Source of the DNA: Methylobacterium sp. AMS5
Lineage (GTDB): Bacteria > Pseudomonadota > Alphaproteobacteria > Rhizobiales > Beijerinckiaceae
Direction: 5' to 3'
NCBI RefSeq assembly: GCF_001542815.1
Contig: NZ_CP006992.1
Location: forward strand, 3,353,501-3,417,500
Length of the DNA stretch: 64,000 nucleotides
The notes beneath the pieces were generated by a model. The model did not search any database, had not been told where the DNA came from, and saw only the letters and a list, made by a program, of their open reading frames with translations. Position numbers and translations under genes: made by a program. Positions 38,307 through 43,918 of this stretch are shown piece after piece (position 1 is the first letter of the stretch; the number at the start of each line of letters is the position of its first letter).

Positions 38307-40207
38307 ACGACTTCGCCCACCTCCTCGACCGACTCGCCTACGAGCCGCGCCGCAACGCCAAGCTGCGCCTGCTCCAGGATTTCTTCGCCGGCACCCCCGA
38401 CCCGGAGCGCGGCTGGGCGCTCGCCGCCATGACCGGCGGACTCACCTTCCGCGAGGCCAAGCCGGCGCTGATCCGCGGGCTGGTGGAAGAGCGGGTCGAT
38501 CCGGTGCTGTTCTCGCTCTCGCACAACTACGTGGGCGACCTCGCCGAGACCACGGCGCTGATCTGGCCGGGCCCGGGTGAATCGCCGGATGCTTCCCCCT
38601 CTCCCCGCATGCGGGGAGAGGGTCGCGACGACCGCGTCGTCGGCGCGACAAGCGGCAGCGAGGGTGAGGAGGCCTTGACGGACGAGGCTCTTCCGGAATC
38701 GCCCCCTCACCATCGCCGGCCGGCTCGCTCTGCCGACGACGCGGTCGCCGAAGCCCTCTGCCCGCAAGCGGGGAGAGGGGACGCCCCTGGCATCGGCCAC
38801 AATAACCCTCCTCTCTGCGTCCCCCCCCTCGCCGAGGTCGTCGAAACCCTCGCCACCACCCCGAAGCGCGAACTCCCGCAGCATCTCGCCCGTTGGCTTG
38901 ACGCCCTCGACGAGACCGGGCGCTGGGCGCTTCTCAAGCTCGTCACCGGCAACCTTCGCGTCGGCGTTTCGGCCCGTCTGGCCAAGACGGCGGTCGGCGC
39001 GCTCGGCGGCCACGAGGCGGATGCGGTCGAGGAAGTCTGGCACGGGCTCAGGCCGCCCTATCCCGAGCTGTTCGCCTGGGTGGAGGGCAGGGCTGAGCGG
39101 CCGGAGAGCCGCAACCCGGCCCCGTTCCGGCCGCCGATGCTCTCGCACCCGGTGGAGGAGTTCGAAGACCTCGACAAACTCGAACCGGAGGCGTTTTCGG
39201 CGGAGTGGAAATGGGACGGCATCCGCGTCCAGCTCGCGGGCGGGCGCGACAGCCAGGGCCGGCAGGTCCAAAAAGTCTACTCGCGCACCGGCGAGGACAT
39301 CTCCGCCGCGTTCCCCGATCTCGCCGAGGCGATCACCTTCGACGGCGCCCTCGACGGCGAATTGCTGATCCTGCGCGAGGGACGCGTCCAGAGCTTCAAC
39401 GTGCTCCAGCAACGGCTCAACCGGAAGGCGGTGACGGGCAAGCTCCTGGAGGAGTTCCCGGCCCATGTCCGCGCCTACGACGTGCTGTCGGCCGAGGGCG
39501 AGGACCTGCGCCCGCTGCCCTTCGCCGAGCGTCGCCCCCGGTTGGAGGCCCTCGTGCAGCGGTTGGACCACGCCCGGATCGACCTCTCGCCCGTGGTGTC
39601 GTTCGCGACCTGGGACGACGTCGCCGCGGCGCGCGCCGATCCGGCCTCCGCCGGGGCGGGGGCCGATGCGGACGCCATCGAGGGCGTGATGCTCAAGCGG
39701 CGCAACAGCCCCTACCTGCCGGGCCGTCCCAAGGGGCCGTGGTGGAAGTGGAAGCGCGAGCCCTACGTGGTCGATGCCGTGATGATGTACGCCCAGCGCG
39801 GCCACGGGAAGCGCTCGTCCTTCTACTCCGACTACACCTTCGGCTGCTGGCGCGAGGGGGCGGAAGGCGAGGAGTTGGTGCCGGTCGGCAAGGCCTATCA
39901 CGGCTTCACCGATGCCGAACTGCAAAAGCTCGACCGCTACGTCCGCAACCATACGACCAAGCGGTTCGGCCCGGTGCGCGAGGTCGCCTACGGCCGCGAG
40001 GCCGGGCTGGTGCTGGAGATCGCCTTCGAGGGCGTGCAGCGCTCGACCCGGCACAAATCGGGCGTGGCGATGCGCTTCCCCCGCGTCAGCCGCATCCGCT
40101 GGGACAAGCCGGCGGCGGAGGCCGACCGGGTCGATGTGCTGGAACGGATTCTGGCGCGCGGCGAGCGCGAGGTCGCGCCGGGCGCGGCGTTGGAGGCATC
40201 GGAATGA
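38303..40207 (+). CDS. ATP-dependent DNA ligase (bacterial LigB/LigC-like, Exo-linked)
   Basis: Seals nicks with ATP, probably in repair with the overlapping exonuclease. An N-terminal helical domain is followed by the nucleotidyltransferase core, with the active Lys about residue 303 in AEWKWDGIRVQL (KxDG), and by the OB domain (PWWKWKREPYVVDAVMMYAQ and AMRFPRVSRIRWDK). The GTG at 38303 overlaps the exonuclease stop. Residues about 98-160 are a Ser/Arg/Pro/Ala-rich insert encoded by a palindromic DNA element that keeps the frame; family members usually lack it. Total 634 aa. Confidence 0.92.
   Translation: MNDFAHLLDRLAYEPRRNAKLRLLQDFFAGTPDPERGWALAAMTGGLTFREAKPALIRGLVEERVDPVLFSLSHNYVGDLAETTALIWPGPGESPDASPSPRMRGEGRDDRVVGATSGSEGEEALTDEALPESPPHHRRPARSADDAVAEALCPQAGRGDAPGIGHNNPPLCVPPLAEVVETLATTPKRELPQHLARWLDALDETGRWALLKLVTGNLRVGVSARLAKTAVGALGGHEADAVEEVWHGLRPPYPELFAWVEGRAERPESRNPAPFRPPMLSHPVEEFEDLDKLEPEAFSAEWKWDGIRVQLAGGRDSQGRQVQKVYSRTGEDISAAFPDLAEAITFDGALDGELLILREGRVQSFNVLQQRLNRKAVTGKLLEEFPAHVRAYDVLSAEGEDLRPLPFAERRPRLEALVQRLDHARIDLSPVVSFATWDDVAAARADPASAGAGADADAIEGVMLKRRNSPYLPGRPKGPWWKWKREPYVVDAVMMYAQRGHGKRSSFYSDYTFGCWREGAEGEELVPVGKAYHGFTDAELQKLDRYVRNHTTKRFGPVREVAYGREAGLVLEIAFEGVQRSTRHKSGVAMRFPRVSRIRWDKPAAEADRVDVLERILARGEREVAPGAALEASE
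38596..38780. repeat. Large palindromic element inserted in frame within the ligase gene
   Basis: About 185 bp forming a near-complete inverted repeat. Each end has CCCCTCTCCCCGC-type arms, each arm a small hairpin itself, and inside them GACGACCGCGTCGTCGG at left matches the complement of CCGACGACGCGGTCG at right. The centre is GGTGAGGAGGC...GCCCCCTCACC around 38688. It looks like an intergenic repeat family that landed in a coding region. Confidence 0.8.
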
Positions 40208-40734
40208 GACAGGCGGGCAGAACCAGCGGAAAGATCGGGCCGCTCGAAGGGTTTTCGACGGCCGAAGTGACCCGGCAGGCGAGTGCGCGGGTGACGGTCG
40301 CGACGCCCGGACCGGGTTTCACGGATGTCACCGAGGCCGTGGCGGGTTTCGTCGCGGAGAGCGGCCTCCGCTCCGGCCTCGTCAGCGTGTTCTGCCGGCA
40401 CACCTCGGCGTCGCTGACGATCCAGGAGAACGCCGACCCGGATGTGCGGGTCGATCTGATGACCGCGCTCGACGGGCTTGCGCCGCGACACGGGCAGTAC
40501 GTCCACGGTATGGAGGGGCCGAACCGGTTACAAAGCCACCGACGATACGTTCACTCGGCAGAGGGACCAGATGATATGCCAGGGCACATCCGGACTATGT
40601 TGACTGACTCTAGCTTATCCATCCCCATTAACTCTGGACAACTCGGATTGGGGCAGTGGCAAGGGATATACCTTATCGAACATCGCGATCGGCCTCACCT
40701 GCGTGAGATCATCATTACCGCCATCGGGACATAA
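40204..40734 (+). CDS. yjbQ: YjbQ family protein, hybrid gene with element-supplied 3' end
   Basis: Protein of the YjbQ/UPF0047 family (some members have thiamin-phosphate synthase activity). Codons 1-106 are host-like (FCRHTSASLTIQENADPDV). From 40522 the sequence turns AT-rich but continues in frame, supplying a diverged C terminus with the conserved WQGIYLIEHRDR. Relative to the native gene the hybrid carries 16 extra residues after EGP, duplicating a YVHxxEGP unit. The native 3' end is stranded at 43178-43342. Length 176 aa; the rejoined native gene would be 160 aa. Whether the hybrid is active is unknown. Confidence 0.88.
   Translation: MRQAGRTSGKIGPLEGFSTAEVTRQASARVTVATPGPGFTDVTEAVAGFVAESGLRSGLVSVFCRHTSASLTIQENADPDVRVDLMTALDGLAPRHGQYVHGMEGPNRLQSHRRYVHSAEGPDDMPGHIRTMLTDSSLSIPINSGQLGLGQWQGIYLIEHRDRPHLREIIITAIGT
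40513..40521 (+). repeat. Left 9-bp direct repeat (attL core candidate)
   Basis: GAGGGGCCG, repeated exactly at 43169-43177. Joining the host DNA across the two copies restores an uninterrupted native yjbQ frame, so this is the recombination point or close to it. Confidence 0.8.
40531..40548 (+). repeat. Left inverted arm CAAAGCC-N6-GATAC
   Basis: Nine bases inside the left direct repeat. The same gapped motif occurs on the opposite strand near the right end (43135-43152), so the two face each other. It may be a recombinase-binding arm; the spacing to the core differs (9 versus 16 bases). Confidence 0.4.
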
Positions 40735-40739
40735 AATCT

Positions 40740-40762
40740 TAAATCCGCCCGCACGGATTTTA
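40740..40762. terminator. Bidirectional terminator between hybrid yjbQ and the RloB gene
   Basis: AAATCCG-CCCGCA-CGGATTT with flanking T/A: a 7-bp stem followed by T on the plus strand and A-rich sequence before it, so it can work for both convergent genes. It lies inside the element. Confidence 0.65.
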
Positions 40763-40797
40763 GCCACACGCGACGATCCAGCAGTTGAGGCACACTA

Positions 40798-41433
40798 CTA
40801 GCCCTTGAGGACGCTGCGTTTTTTGTACAACTTCATCAGCCTCGATACCAAGACATGAACATTCGTTCCGGGGTTACTAATGCCTTGCCTAGATAGCCAA
40901 TCAGCATTACGACATGCCTGCTCGGTCATAGGAAACAGGACCGCAAAATCAACTTCCTTTTCTTTTTTGCAGTATTTGTTGTGATGTTTAGAAACCAAAT
41001 TGATCGCGTCTTTCTCGTTAACAAGGGGGGAAAGCGATATTTTCTCCCAGTGGAGCGCAAGCCAGACTTCAAATGATCTAGTAGATACGCAAAGGGTGAT
41101 CTGAGCCTTTTCGCATATACCTACAGCATCAGATAAATCTTGCGGAGATGTGTCGTCGACGTCACAAACGCAATAAACTTCCTCAAATGGACCCTCGCTA
41201 GCGGCCCAGTCCCTGCAAGCCTCTACAGCTTCCAAAGCATTACCGCCACTTCGAAGATAGTATGGTCTGATATCAGCGCCGACGTTGCCGAGCTTGAGCT
41301 TCCATCCCATAAAATATCGATATTCCGTGCGCTCGCCGTCGACGCCAACAGCAATAACCCTTATCCGAGCGGACCTTCTTCCCTGCTTGCGTGACGCAAG
41401 TTTGCTTCCGAAGCGGTGCGTAGGCTTGGGCAT
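40798..41433 (-). CDS. RloB-family (AbiLii-like) TOPRIM-type protein
   Basis: Second gene of the element's pair, 211 aa. The RloB pattern is visible: IAVGVDGERTEYRYF near the N terminus carries the TOPRIM-type acidic residue (GExTE), and VYCVCDVDDTSP has the Asp-x-Asp-Asp group. ISLCVSTRSFEVW-like FEVWLALHW is also typical. TOPRIM folds of this kind are usually nucleases. AAGGA at seven bases makes the ATG at 41433 the start; a TTG at 41448 is less likely. It lies 21 bp after the ATPase gene. AT-rich compared with the host. Target unknown. Confidence 0.85.
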   Translation of the reverse strand: MPKPTHRFGSKLASRKQGRRSARIRVIAVGVDGERTEYRYFMGWKLKLGNVGADIRPYYLRSGGNALEAVEACRDWAASEGPFEEVYCVCDVDDTSPQDLSDAVGICEKAQITLCVSTRSFEVWLALHWEKISLSPLVNEKDAINLVSKHHNKYCKKEKEVDFAVLFPMTEQACRNADWLSRQGISNPGTNVHVLVSRLMKLYKKRSVLKG

Positions 41434-41454
41434 GATACTATCCTTCAACCCAAG

Positions 41455-42759
41455 CTAGTGCGAATGCAATTCTTCTAAATTCAATCCAAGTGCAGGTATC
41501 GCCCCGTATCTTCCGCGAAGGTATCCTCGCTCAAGATTCTCATCCTTCCTCGGGGCAAATTCAAGGAGAGAGTAGAGCTTTGACTTAGCATGTACTTTCT
41601 CAACGAACCAAATTTGGTCTCGCCTAAGCAAGGATTGATCGAGCAAATTGGTATCATGTGTCGTGAAAACGACTTGACCACCAGCCTTATTCACGTCCTT
41701 ATTCTGGAACAACTCAACAATCATCCTGGCAAGATGCGGATGAATGCTGGTTTCAAGCTCATCTACAATCACAACATCTCCAGACCGGAGACCAAACAGT
41801 ACCCTCGCCACCATAGAGAAGAATTTTTTGAAGCCTTTAGATTGAACCTCGTATGGAAGAAGGATTCTTGACTTTCCAGACTTAACTGCAAAATTTATGC
41901 TATATCCGTAGCTTGACTCAAAAATTGAAAGAGCTTCTTCCTGTAGCATACCCTTCATAGCCTCGGGATATGAGGGTTCATCATTCTTTTTTATCAGAAT
42001 ATCGATCAAACCCGGCTCTACAACGCGCATGAGAGATAGAACAGATTTTTTCATCTCCTCATCTTCAAGGAGCAATTGCGCTGTAAGCATAGAATGCATA
42101 CGCTCTGGTGGTCCGGGCAAATTCACAGAGCTAATTCTATCTTGAAACCAATCATAAACTATCCGGCACACAGGGTGGTTCTCCTGCGCCGCAACAGAAA
42201 GTGCTAGACTGTTCTCTCTAGTCTTCCGGACAACAGAAGGTACGAATGGCCCTTCCTCACCGAAAGCGGGGCCATATTCAATATCGGTAATAAATTTACC
42301 AGCGTCACCTCTTTGCGTCCTTCTCGAAAAAACTAAAACCTCCTTTCCGTTTGGATATGCCATTAGCCATTCCTCCTCGAACAATGAGGAGGAAGCAGCA
42401 ACGCCATAGCTATACCTTGTTTCTTCAATTAAAAAGTCAACCTCGATGACAGCCGGGGTCTTATAACTGTCTTTTCCAGCAAACTGGGAAATCTTTGTAC
42501 CACGGCCAGGTTTCCATAAGCGATGAGATTCAAGCACCGCATCATGAAGGTAGCTCAATGCTTGAAGAACATTCGTCTTACCTGCGGAATTTGCGCCGTA
42601 TATGGCTATTGCTGGCAAAATCTTCGAAGGTAGCTTTGCTTTAACAGGCGGAACCAACAGACAATCGGGAAGCGTCTTGTCCGCGCGATGGGAAAGGAGG
42701 GACAGGCTTCCCCCGTCTTTGAACGATTTAAAATTTTTAAAACGGTAAGCGATGAGCAT
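41455..42759 (-). CDS. AAA-family ATPase (RloA/AbiLi-like, OLD/ABC-type)
   Basis: First gene of the element's pair, 434 aa. RFKNFKSFKDGGSLSLLS is the usual N terminus of ABC/SMC-like AAA_15 ATPases. Walker A is YGANSAGKTN (54-63), Walker B VVIVDELETSIHP (about 329-341), and a switch His is in TTHDTNLLD. The C-terminal RGRYGAIPAL is typical of the RloA/AbiLi group. No nuclease domain is fused, so the RloB partner is the likely effector. The ATG at 42759 opens the conserved N terminus; the frame further upstream lacks similarity. Role in phage defence is inferred from family and pairing. Confidence 0.88.
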   Translation of the reverse strand: MLIAYRFKNFKSFKDGGSLSLLSHRADKTLPDCLLVPPVKAKLPSKILPAIAIYGANSAGKTNVLQALSYLHDAVLESHRLWKPGRGTKISQFAGKDSYKTPAVIEVDFLIEETRYSYGVAASSSLFEEEWLMAYPNGKEVLVFSRRTQRGDAGKFITDIEYGPAFGEEGPFVPSVVRKTRENSLALSVAAQENHPVCRIVYDWFQDRISSVNLPGPPERMHSMLTAQLLLEDEEMKKSVLSLMRVVEPGLIDILIKKNDEPSYPEAMKGMLQEEALSIFESSYGYSINFAVKSGKSRILLPYEVQSKGFKKFFSMVARVLFGLRSGDVVIVDELETSIHPHLARMIVELFQNKDVNKAGGQVVFTTHDTNLLDQSLLRRDQIWFVEKVHAKSKLYSLLEFAPRKDENLERGYLRGRYGAIPALGLNLEELHSH

Positions 42760-43036
42760 TCTAACTGTCCAGCGGACGGTGGCGCCTCGGAGAGCGCCTC
42801 CTCTTGTCGGTCGAAAAATGTGAAAAGTCCACGAATTTGGTGCACGAGCACGCAACGGGGTACGTACCTATCCGCCGAAGGTACGCATAGCCCCCACGAG
42901 GCTTTCGACTAACACCTGACACTAGAAGCATTTCATTAGCGTACGCCCTAAGGTGACGGCGCAATGTGACAGCGGATAACGTCACATCAGGGTAATTCTG
43001 ATCAGATGTTACATCACCGTAAGGCGGTCTTAGACT
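42760..43036 (-). promoter_or_regulatory. Operator-like region upstream of the AAA ATPase gene
   Basis: No convincing gene is seen here. The region holds TGTGAC-N10-GTCACA (42965-42986), an 8-bp palindrome CTGATCAG (42998-43005) and repeated GATGT[AG]AC half-sites (near 42980 and 43010). Such a cluster could bind a regulator controlling the ATPase-RloB operon. A short frame (42985 to 42761, minus strand) contains TLRRHLRAYANE, which may be more recombinase debris. Confidence 0.4.
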
Positions 43037-43111
43037 CTACTGACGGCGCAGAGAGTCGCCCTGCTCCTGTACCTTGGTGGACATACAGACATATAAGAAC
43101 GCTGTCGGCAT
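43037..43111 (-). pseudogene. Serine-recombinase N-terminal remnant
   Basis: A 24-codon frame reads MPTAFLYVCMSTKVQEQG then DSLRRQ and stops. The pattern Y-x-R-x-ST-x2-Q-x4-SLxxQ is the catalytic N terminus of large serine recombinases; the Arg is Cys here (YVCMST for YVRMST). The frame ends where the rest of the catalytic domain should follow, and that domain is missing. It starts about 57 bp inside the right direct repeat, the usual place for an integrase gene. I read it as the dead integrase of this element. Confidence 0.65.
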
Positions 43112-43134
43112 CAACGCGAGCCCCAGCCTACTGA

Positions 43135-43152
43135 GTATCCATAGCGGCTTTG
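43135..43152 (-). repeat. Right inverted arm GTATC-N6-GGCTTTG
   Basis: Reverse complement of the left arm motif CAAAGCC-N6-GATAC, 16 bases inside the right direct repeat. The match is 12 of 12 fixed positions with the same six-base gap. Confidence 0.4.
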
Positions 43153-43168
43153 GATTGCGTTTTATAGC

Positions 43169-43177
43169 GAGGGGCCG
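43169..43177 (+). repeat. Right 9-bp direct repeat (attR core candidate)
   Basis: GAGGGGCCG, identical to 40513-40521, directly before the stranded native yjbQ 3' end. Confidence 0.8.
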
Positions 43178-43342
43178 GGCGACATGCCCGCCCATATCCG
43201 CACGATGGTGACCGACTCGGGCCTCACCATCCCCGTGAGCGACGGTCGCCTGGTGCTGGGCACGTGGCAGGGCATCTACCTGATCGAGCACCGCGACCGG
43301 GCGCATCGGCGGGAGATCGCGCTGCACGCCGTCGGCGCCTGA
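43178..43342 (+). pseudogene. yjbQ: Stranded native 3' end of yjbQ
   Basis: Fifty-four codons plus stop, G+C-rich like the host, encoding GDMPAHIRTMVTDSG through GTWQGIYLIEHRDRAHRRE. Fused to codons 1-106 at 40204-40521 it gives a complete 160-residue YjbQ with no frame break. By hand count, 39 of 57 residues from EGP onward match the element-supplied C terminus. It has no start signal of its own and is probably not translated. Confidence 0.85.
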
Positions 43343-43350
43343 AGCCGCTT

Positions 43351-43797
43351 TCAGCGCCGGATCAGAATCACACCGCCGACGAGGAGCGCGACACCGATCA
43401 GGCGCGGACCGTCGAGGGGGCGCTGGGCGAGCCCCATCCAGCCGAAATGGTCGAAGGTGACCGAGGCCAGCATTTGACCGGCGACGAGGAGCGCGATGAA
43501 GGCCGCGGCGCCGAGCTGCGGCACGAGAACGATGGCCAGCCCGATGAAGAGCGCGCCGAACAGGCCGCCGCTCCAGGCCCACCACGGCACCCGCGCCGCC
43601 ACGCTCGTCGCGGGCAGGGGATCGCGCAGAGCCAGGGCAAGCAGCGCCATGCAGGCGAGGCCGACAGCGTAGCTCGCGAAACCGGCCCAGGCCGCGGAGC
43701 CGAGATCCGCGCGCAGGCGGGCATTCAGCACCTGCTGGACGACGATGCTGACGCCCGCCGCGATGGCGAGGAGGGAGGGGAGCAGGAGACGAAGCAT
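43351..43797 (-). CDS. DMT-superfamily transporter (DUF606/YdcZ type)
   Basis: A 148-residue membrane protein with five helices: LLLPSLLAIAAGVSIVVQQVLNA, then SAAWAGFASYAVGLACMALLA, GGLFGALFIGLAIVL and LGAAAFIALLVAGQMLASVTFDHFGW, ending RLIGVALLVGGVILIRR. The GQMLASVxFDHFGW signature marks the DUF606 family, half-size DMT-like proteins that pair or dimerise. Substrate unknown. It is divergent from a LysR regulator that may control it. Confidence 0.88.
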   Translation of the reverse strand: MLRLLLPSLLAIAAGVSIVVQQVLNARLRADLGSAAWAGFASYAVGLACMALLALALRDPLPATSVAARVPWWAWSGGLFGALFIGLAIVLVPQLGAAAFIALLVAGQMLASVTFDHFGWMGLAQRPLDGPRLIGVALLVGGVILIRR

Positions 43798-43918
43798 CGG
43801 CCCTTGAGCCTTATCGGGTGGTGCAGCCGGCGTCCGGCGGAACGTGGTCGGCGCATTGACACCCGCGAAGCCCCATGACGTCAAATTCCTAAGATGCAGC
43901 TTTCCATGCAGATGAGGC

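Follow-up and report, generated by a model that had tools for sequence, protein, structure and literature searches.

In a 64,000-nucleotide stretch of Methylobacterium sp. AMS5 (contig NZ_CP006992.1, positions 3,353,501 to 3,417,500; the whole stretch is called the window and its own numbering is used throughout), the gene yjbQ is entered by an AT-rich element that carries a yjbQ 3' end of its own. We conclude that positions 40513-43168 are probably an immobile copy of a genomic island, for whose placement in yjbQ, with in-frame repair of the target, a large serine recombinase (LSR) was responsible. Observed in the sequence are the chimeric gene, the displaced native end, the recurrence of the same arrangement with the same length in related genomes, an LSR at an element end in two relatives, dyad-symmetric arms of the attachment site and a low ratio of nonsynonymous to synonymous substitution rates (dN/dS) in the element-borne copies.

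A chimeric yjbQ and its displaced native end

An earlier note on this DNA had described yjbQ as normal up to codon 106, AT-rich from position 40522 and in frame to a new stop at 40734, with the native 3' end surviving at 43178-43342. Our measurements agree with this description: the G+C content falls from 69.5% in 40204-40521 to 47.9% in 40522-43168 and amounts to 71.8% in 43169-43342, and in profile searches the product of the single 176-codon frame matches UPF0047/YjbQ in two stretches. The fragment at 43184-43342 scores as UPF0047 as well (profile positions 69-115 of 117), sits 2.66 kb downstream and is nearest to the native genes of the relatives G014 and G003 (50 of 54 residues). It is adjoined by a YdcZ gene at 43351, and the order ligase-yjbQ-YdcZ is found without interruption in G014, G044, G038 and G107. 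Fusing the flanks of the window at the dinucleotide GA restores an unbroken 160-codon gene, which aligns gap-free across the junction with the native gene of G060, just as the note had expected from rejoining the flanks. The displaced end itself (43184-43342) holds an ATG and a 52-codon open frame and could still be translated.

The note had further counted 39 of 57 identical C-terminal residues between the element-borne and the native end, and the same figure is obtained from 36 of 54 residues from the DMP block onwards plus the three residues EGP. Its conclusion that this is a homologous replacement and not chance read-through holds, as the same arrangement in other genomes excludes chance. 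The replacement of the 3' end completes the gene in frame as claimed, but the repair is not seamless: 16 codons are added, and since the replacement copy sets in 5' of the crossover, YVHxxE occurs twice. Over its whole length, the YjbQ of the window is 60-83% identical to the proteins of 39 relatives from the genus. Apart from a recombinase stub, no recognised gene lies between the ATPase gene AbiLi and the displaced yjbQ end; Rfam families were not found at 40000-43800, nor tRNAs in the window. All features are collected in Table 1.

Table 1 Features of yjbQ and of the element in the window, with the basis of each assignment
Feature	Position	Strand	Basis
Chimeric, repaired yjbQ	40204..40734	+	Single open frame, 176 codons
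5' portion of yjbQ from the host, as far as the putative crossover	40204..40512	+	Frame and UPF0047 match
Putative crossover at the dinucleotide GA of attL (bases 1 and 2 of a Glu codon)	40513..40514	+	Centre of the attP dyad
Putative attP right arm, read as in-frame linker GPNRLQSHRR, half-site motif TTACAAAG	40515..40545	+	Translation; arm motif in relatives
Element-borne yjbQ 3' copy, begins YVHSAEGPDDMP and runs to the stop; recoded internal attB-like site at ~40561	40546..40734	+	
RloB / AbiLii	40798..41433	-	PF13707 2e-23; AbiLii 7.1e-20 (PADLOC)
AbiLi, AAA_21 ATPase	41455..42759	-	PF13304 2.3e-34; AbiLi 2.4e-82 (PADLOC)
LSR gene 5' remnant beside attR, 24 codons, then stop (MPTAFLYVCMSTKVQEQGDSLRRQ)	43037..43111	-	tblastn and DNA alignment
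Putative attP left arm, half-site ending AATCCAAAGCC	43146..43168	-	Dyad with right arm; corresponding arms in G071 and G042
Putative crossover dinucleotide GA in attR	43169..43170	+	Inferred
Displaced native yjbQ 3' end	43169..43342	+	UPF0047 match; likeness to natives

Recurrence in the genus and a serine recombinase at the element ends

Searching 111 genomes of the genus for yjbQ gave a match in 109 (none in G078 and G108), and 108 of the genes were read at the DNA level, G077 being left out as its gene is split over contig ends. The note had proposed a search for intact short genes in relatives and for further elements ending in a yjbQ 3' fragment, and both exist: 99 of the 108 genes are native and uninterrupted, eight are long (G000, the genome of the window, G042, G047, G095, G006, G030, G050 and G051) and one, in G071, is disrupted. 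In all eight long forms the two Glu codons are spaced by 16 codons, corresponding to a 48-bp insert at the same codon, and in four of them an orphan native 3' end follows downstream, intact in G000, G042 and G047 and decayed in G006. The gene of G071 is cut short (YVHGIERPDRLQRQD, then a stop) without any replacement end and represents a disruptive form. Six natives (G052, G009, G008, G091, G074 and G054; loci L163, L169, L170, L171, L174 and L191) have a loop that is two codons longer, LPGGGY, just before the host attachment site (attB), with the core GAAGGCCCC. A second kind of element was seen in G060 (L209 198-2082) at the very 3' end of an intact yjbQ: its AT-rich insert of ~1.35 kb holds one gene with a Tle1-like phospholipase domain (PF09994), and behind it the final ~60 bp of yjbQ occur once more as a displaced copy, with 55 of 62 bases identical.

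Could the long yjbQ be an ordinary variant in loop length, beside which elements inserted later or which they captured? Half of the long forms come without a second yjbQ fragment, the insert falls into a low-confidence segment of the structural model and six natives have a different, two-codon longer loop, all of which would suit such a variant. We regard it as very unlikely in view of the displaced native end in four long forms, the 99 natives without the insert and the half-site inside the insert, which resembles the arm at the other end of the element. Moreover, no long yjbQ was found outside the genus among the matches listed for 298 genomes of the family; nine of the family genomes with two or weak partial matches were rechecked, eight of which hold native or separate copies, while the match in G239 runs into a contig end.

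A single origin of the element-borne 3' ends was pursued by phylogeny and the attempt was abandoned, the 53-column tree being unresolved and favouring neither one nor many captures: the element rows need three changes in this tree, the shuffled mean is 4.2 and 80 of 500 shuffles are as low. The residues TDSS[LM]SIP occur in five of the eight element copies and in three of the 99 natives, and together with the common insert length they give an indirect hint of a single origin.

Which enzyme placed the island? The element of G071 (18.5 kb) encodes an LSR of 580 amino acids with Resolvase, Recombinase and Zn-ribbon domains, which adjoins the 5' part of yjbQ. In the element of G042 (14.2 kb between the GA sites), the LSR has 349 residues and comprises a Resolvase and a Recombinase domain; it adjoins the displaced 3' end and is short of full length. 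The two proteins share 169 of 321 residues. The stub in the window matches the N terminus of the G042 LSR in tblastn (E 9.6e-5 in a small database), and at the DNA level it aligns with the start of the G042 gene from the first base beyond GA with a score of 84, the best of 1000 mononucleotide shuffles reaching 53.5. An LSR gene or remnant stands next to an element end in three of the nine affected genomes, and the likely integrase of the yjbQ islands is an LSR, which would act on the sites described below. As only the LSR stub is left and the genome of the window has no match to the G071 LSR at E <= 0.001, the island of the window is probably immobile unless helped in trans. Two adjacent serine recombinase matches (PF07508) were noticed elsewhere in this genome (C1:1661679-1664111); they are not among the G071 LSR matches.

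Across 397 genomes from the order, in each of which no more than three candidates were scored, LSR matches at E <= 1e-40 came up in 16 and were 30-39% identical. Viral contigs gave one distant yjbQ (47%) and no LSR relative. Plasmids carry yjbQ of up to 63.5% identity (best in Methylobacterium bullatum) and LSRs below 60%, and the LSRs of phages are likewise below 60%. One Photobacterium locus showed 39% LSR identity.

The attachment site of an element that uses a serine recombinase (attP) is expected to form a dyad around a central dinucleotide. When the arms are read outward from GA, 21 of 28 bases agree in G071, 14 of 28 in G042 and 13 of 28 in the window, and among 20000 shuffles none did as well for G071, 0.34% for G042 (p 0.003) and 1.5% for the window (p 0.015). 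The right arms in the window, in G042 and in G071 have the motif ACnnnTTrCAAAG in common with the left arm of G071; the right-arm motif is also present in G047, G006 and G095 and altered in G071 and G030. Judged from these sequences, the crossover probably takes place at GA inside the Glu codon, within a dyad-symmetric attP. The note had drawn attention to a direct repeat, and the 9 bp GAGGGGCCG do occur twice, at 40513-40521 and 43169-43177. What attP and attB share before the first mismatch is CGA in G042 and CGAG in G071, compared to 9 bp in the window, and the repeat is probably for the most part attP resembling attB around a shorter crossover.

The brevity of this repeat, together with the lack of a complete integrase gene in the window, would also be compatible with entry of foreign DNA, bearing a diverged yjbQ 3' end and AbiL, by homologous or illegitimate recombination via the conserved yjbQ and without any site-specific event. 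The locus of G001, in which AbiL lies beside an intact yjbQ and a decayed copy and no att site was recognised, fits this idea too. We nevertheless consider it unlikely, since it does not account for a 48-bp insert at the same codon in eight genomes with differing cargo, for the dyad arms or for the serine recombinase or its remnant at the element end in three of nine affected genomes.

Placement by a tyrosine integrase, as in icd-type islands, with the recombinases of G042 and G071 as mere passengers, appears scarcely credible. Such islands typically combine repair with displacement of the native 3' end (PMC10111431), and an element of similar appearance sits at the end of the gene in G060; against this stand the repeat of 9 bp without a long block of identity, a copy with 107 of 162 identical bases at an offset of 48 bp, and the serine recombinase genes or remnant at the element ends. 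The 15 matches to PF00589 (tyrosine integrase) in the genome all lie outside the window.

Proposed repair of the gene, constraint and possible recoding

How could yjbQ, once cut inside a motif, come out as one open frame again? In the mechanism that we propose, an LSR crossover at GA in the Glu codon of YVHGxE-GPDDMP would cut the gene, and the attP arm landing beside the host 5' part, being open in the yjbQ frame, would be translated as a 10-residue linker. With the cut at this place, a 3' end that merely followed the attP arm would leave the linker in the middle of the motif. The copy of the element begins at the Tyr of YVHxxEGPDDMP, and for this reason an undivided motif stands downstream of the linker; the element's own yjbQ 3' part would thereby complete a protein of 176 instead of 160 codons. 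The host would pay little for the insertion and the island would keep its cargo, here a RloA/RloB-like AbiL pair. Later loss of the recombinase gene except for its 5' stub would leave an island that is not expected to move unaided.

Several observations point towards constraint on the repaired gene. H..EGPDDMP is intact in all eight element copies, and H..EGP[DG]D[MI]P is present in 98 of 99 natives; in the host-derived first copy of the motif the His is lost in G050/G051. The dN and dS values of the element 3' copy (NG86) are 0.05 and 0.83 for G042/G047, 0.04 and 0.21 for G095/G006, and 0.13 and 0.58 for G030/G050. Where it can be estimated, the pairwise dN/dS of the element copies ranges from 0.06 (G042/G047) to 0.23 (G030/G050), dS having defied estimation for two pairs with G000; the host 5' part gave 0.25 to 0.48 with the same script. 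The predicted model of the 176-residue protein keeps the YjbQ fold, with 17 PDB chains found at E <= 0.001 from nine entries that were also found by sequence search, and its template modelling (TM) score against 1xbf is 0.86 by target length and 0.65 by query length. Residues 98-106 and 112-132 of the model fall below 50 in the predicted local distance difference test (pLDDT), as do residues 98-106 and 109-116 of the native control. The repaired YjbQ is presumed to be functional.

The element-borne copy contains an internal attB-like site. In the attB core, the Gly codon is GGG in 73 of 98 natives (G089, which has DIP for DMP, was left out) and in none of the eight element copies, and GGG makes up 482 of 1616 other Gly codons in the examined native stretch. 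Recoding of this kind could prevent recombination between attP and the repaired gene of the same element, at a distance of 48 bp. The pattern is suggestive only, because common descent probably links the eight copies, some of which are AT-richer. Going one step further, we put forward as a tentative idea, somewhat less probable than not, that serine-recombinase defence islands evolved repair by translating their own attP arm, with the motif re-supplied, the internal attB synonymously recoded against self-cutting and an end that may outlast the island (as in G095 and G030/G050/G051).

Several points weigh against insertion by an LSR with subsequent service of the repaired gene. An intact LSR and a repaired yjbQ were never found together in one element: the intact LSR of G071 goes with a disrupted yjbQ and lies on the other side of attP, the LSR of G042 is truncated, and no convincing LSR remnant was found in the elements of G006, G047 and G001. 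The dyad of the window itself is modest at the p value given above, and in both the window and G042 the left arm deviates from TTrCAAAG. G095, G030, G050 and G051 have no second yjbQ match genome-wide and are linked to an element only indirectly; we infer that they are scars, in which the element-borne end now serves as sole 3' end. Furthermore, the element copies are not recovered as a single clade in the unresolved 53-column tree, their low dN/dS may partly date from before capture, and the insert-bearing segment is poorly modelled, as it also is in the native model.

Cargo and comparison with known systems

The note had called the element defence-type, and PADLOC bears this out by matching both halves of AbiL. 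The AbiLi scores were obtained with an open reading frame (ORF) starting upstream at 42855, the start at 42759 being our choice. Nothing unusual was seen in the pair itself, which is predicted to be active. In the elements of relatives, family scans were run on chosen ORFs only. They revealed DarG and DarT (DarTG) in G006, a type III-A retron reverse transcriptase with a PRTase and a caspase-like protein in G042 and an AbiU/AIPR protein in G071, while the single ORF scanned in G047 is a LysR regulator. The element of G071 also has a VapE-like replication gene (L052 2322-3923), a hint of a phage-satellite lifestyle; a VapE-like domain was not seen in either of the two full-length genes that the window element carries.

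In G001 (L055 1847-5387), an AbiL pair 57% and 53% identical to that of the window stands next to a native yjbQ that is intact and a further, decayed copy, without a recognised att site. Upstream of AbiLi, a stretch of 27 columns, AAAAAT(C)GTGAAAAGTCCAC, is nearly identical in the window and G001. AbiLi relatives occur in five of the 111 genus genomes (E <= 1e-20), and in G020, G041 and G091 they reside on contigs other than that of yjbQ. In total, four PADLOC-matched defence types in five genomes lie inside or beside yjbQ, the pair of G001 being counted by its similarity to that of the window.

The finding is real and recurrent. It is well established that islands repair their targets, as has been documented for tyrosine integrases, and what is new here is the likely LSR integrase. 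According to PMC10111431, attP usually brings replacement sequence when the target is a gene, identity blocks at icd and tRNA genes can be as long as ~250 bp, and tyrosine integrases are the only type in that study; PMC12884075 notes that in many cases the target is made whole again by the island. The tyrosine-integrase islands in icd and many tRNA genes, as portrayed in PMC10111431 and PMC4383910, resemble the yjbQ islands in that they carry a replacement 3' end and that the native end has been moved to the opposite side of the element, which it marks. In those islands, however, the att identity block runs through the replaced part, whereas the yjbQ islands have 9 bp of identity only, a diverged copy that starts 5' of the putative crossover, an added linker and a serine recombinase.

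LSR elements such as the integrative and conjugative elements (ICEs) of Streptococcus in rumA, hsdM and mutT, as described in PMC4701971, are alike in the Resolvase and Recombinase (and Zn-ribbon) protein at the element end, the very short direct repeats and the protein-coding target. There, 29 streptococcal ICEs with a serine integrase are reported, every insertion of which disrupts a protein gene; the yjbQ islands, in contrast, supply a homologous C terminus in frame. In the open-access literature, we found neither a serine-recombinase island with target repair nor yjbQ as an integration site. SCC elements (staphylococcal cassette chromosome) enter the 3' end of the housekeeping gene rlmH by means of the serine recombinases CcrAB or CcrC, and the gene stays functional with only its last few codons involved. 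Compared to this, the yjbQ islands replace ~60 codons and add 16.

The yjbQ group provides a case from nature in which one attachment site serves both recombination and coding, together with a testable idea of how a repaired gene avoids being cut again, and its att sequences along with the intact G071 recombinase may be useful for integrating DNA into alphaproteobacteria. In the survey of streptococcal ICEs (PMC4701971), serine-recombinase elements come out as target-disrupting, and the yjbQ group suggests how such an element can turn harmless and hence persist. Within the genus, yjbQ looks like a hot spot for defence islands.

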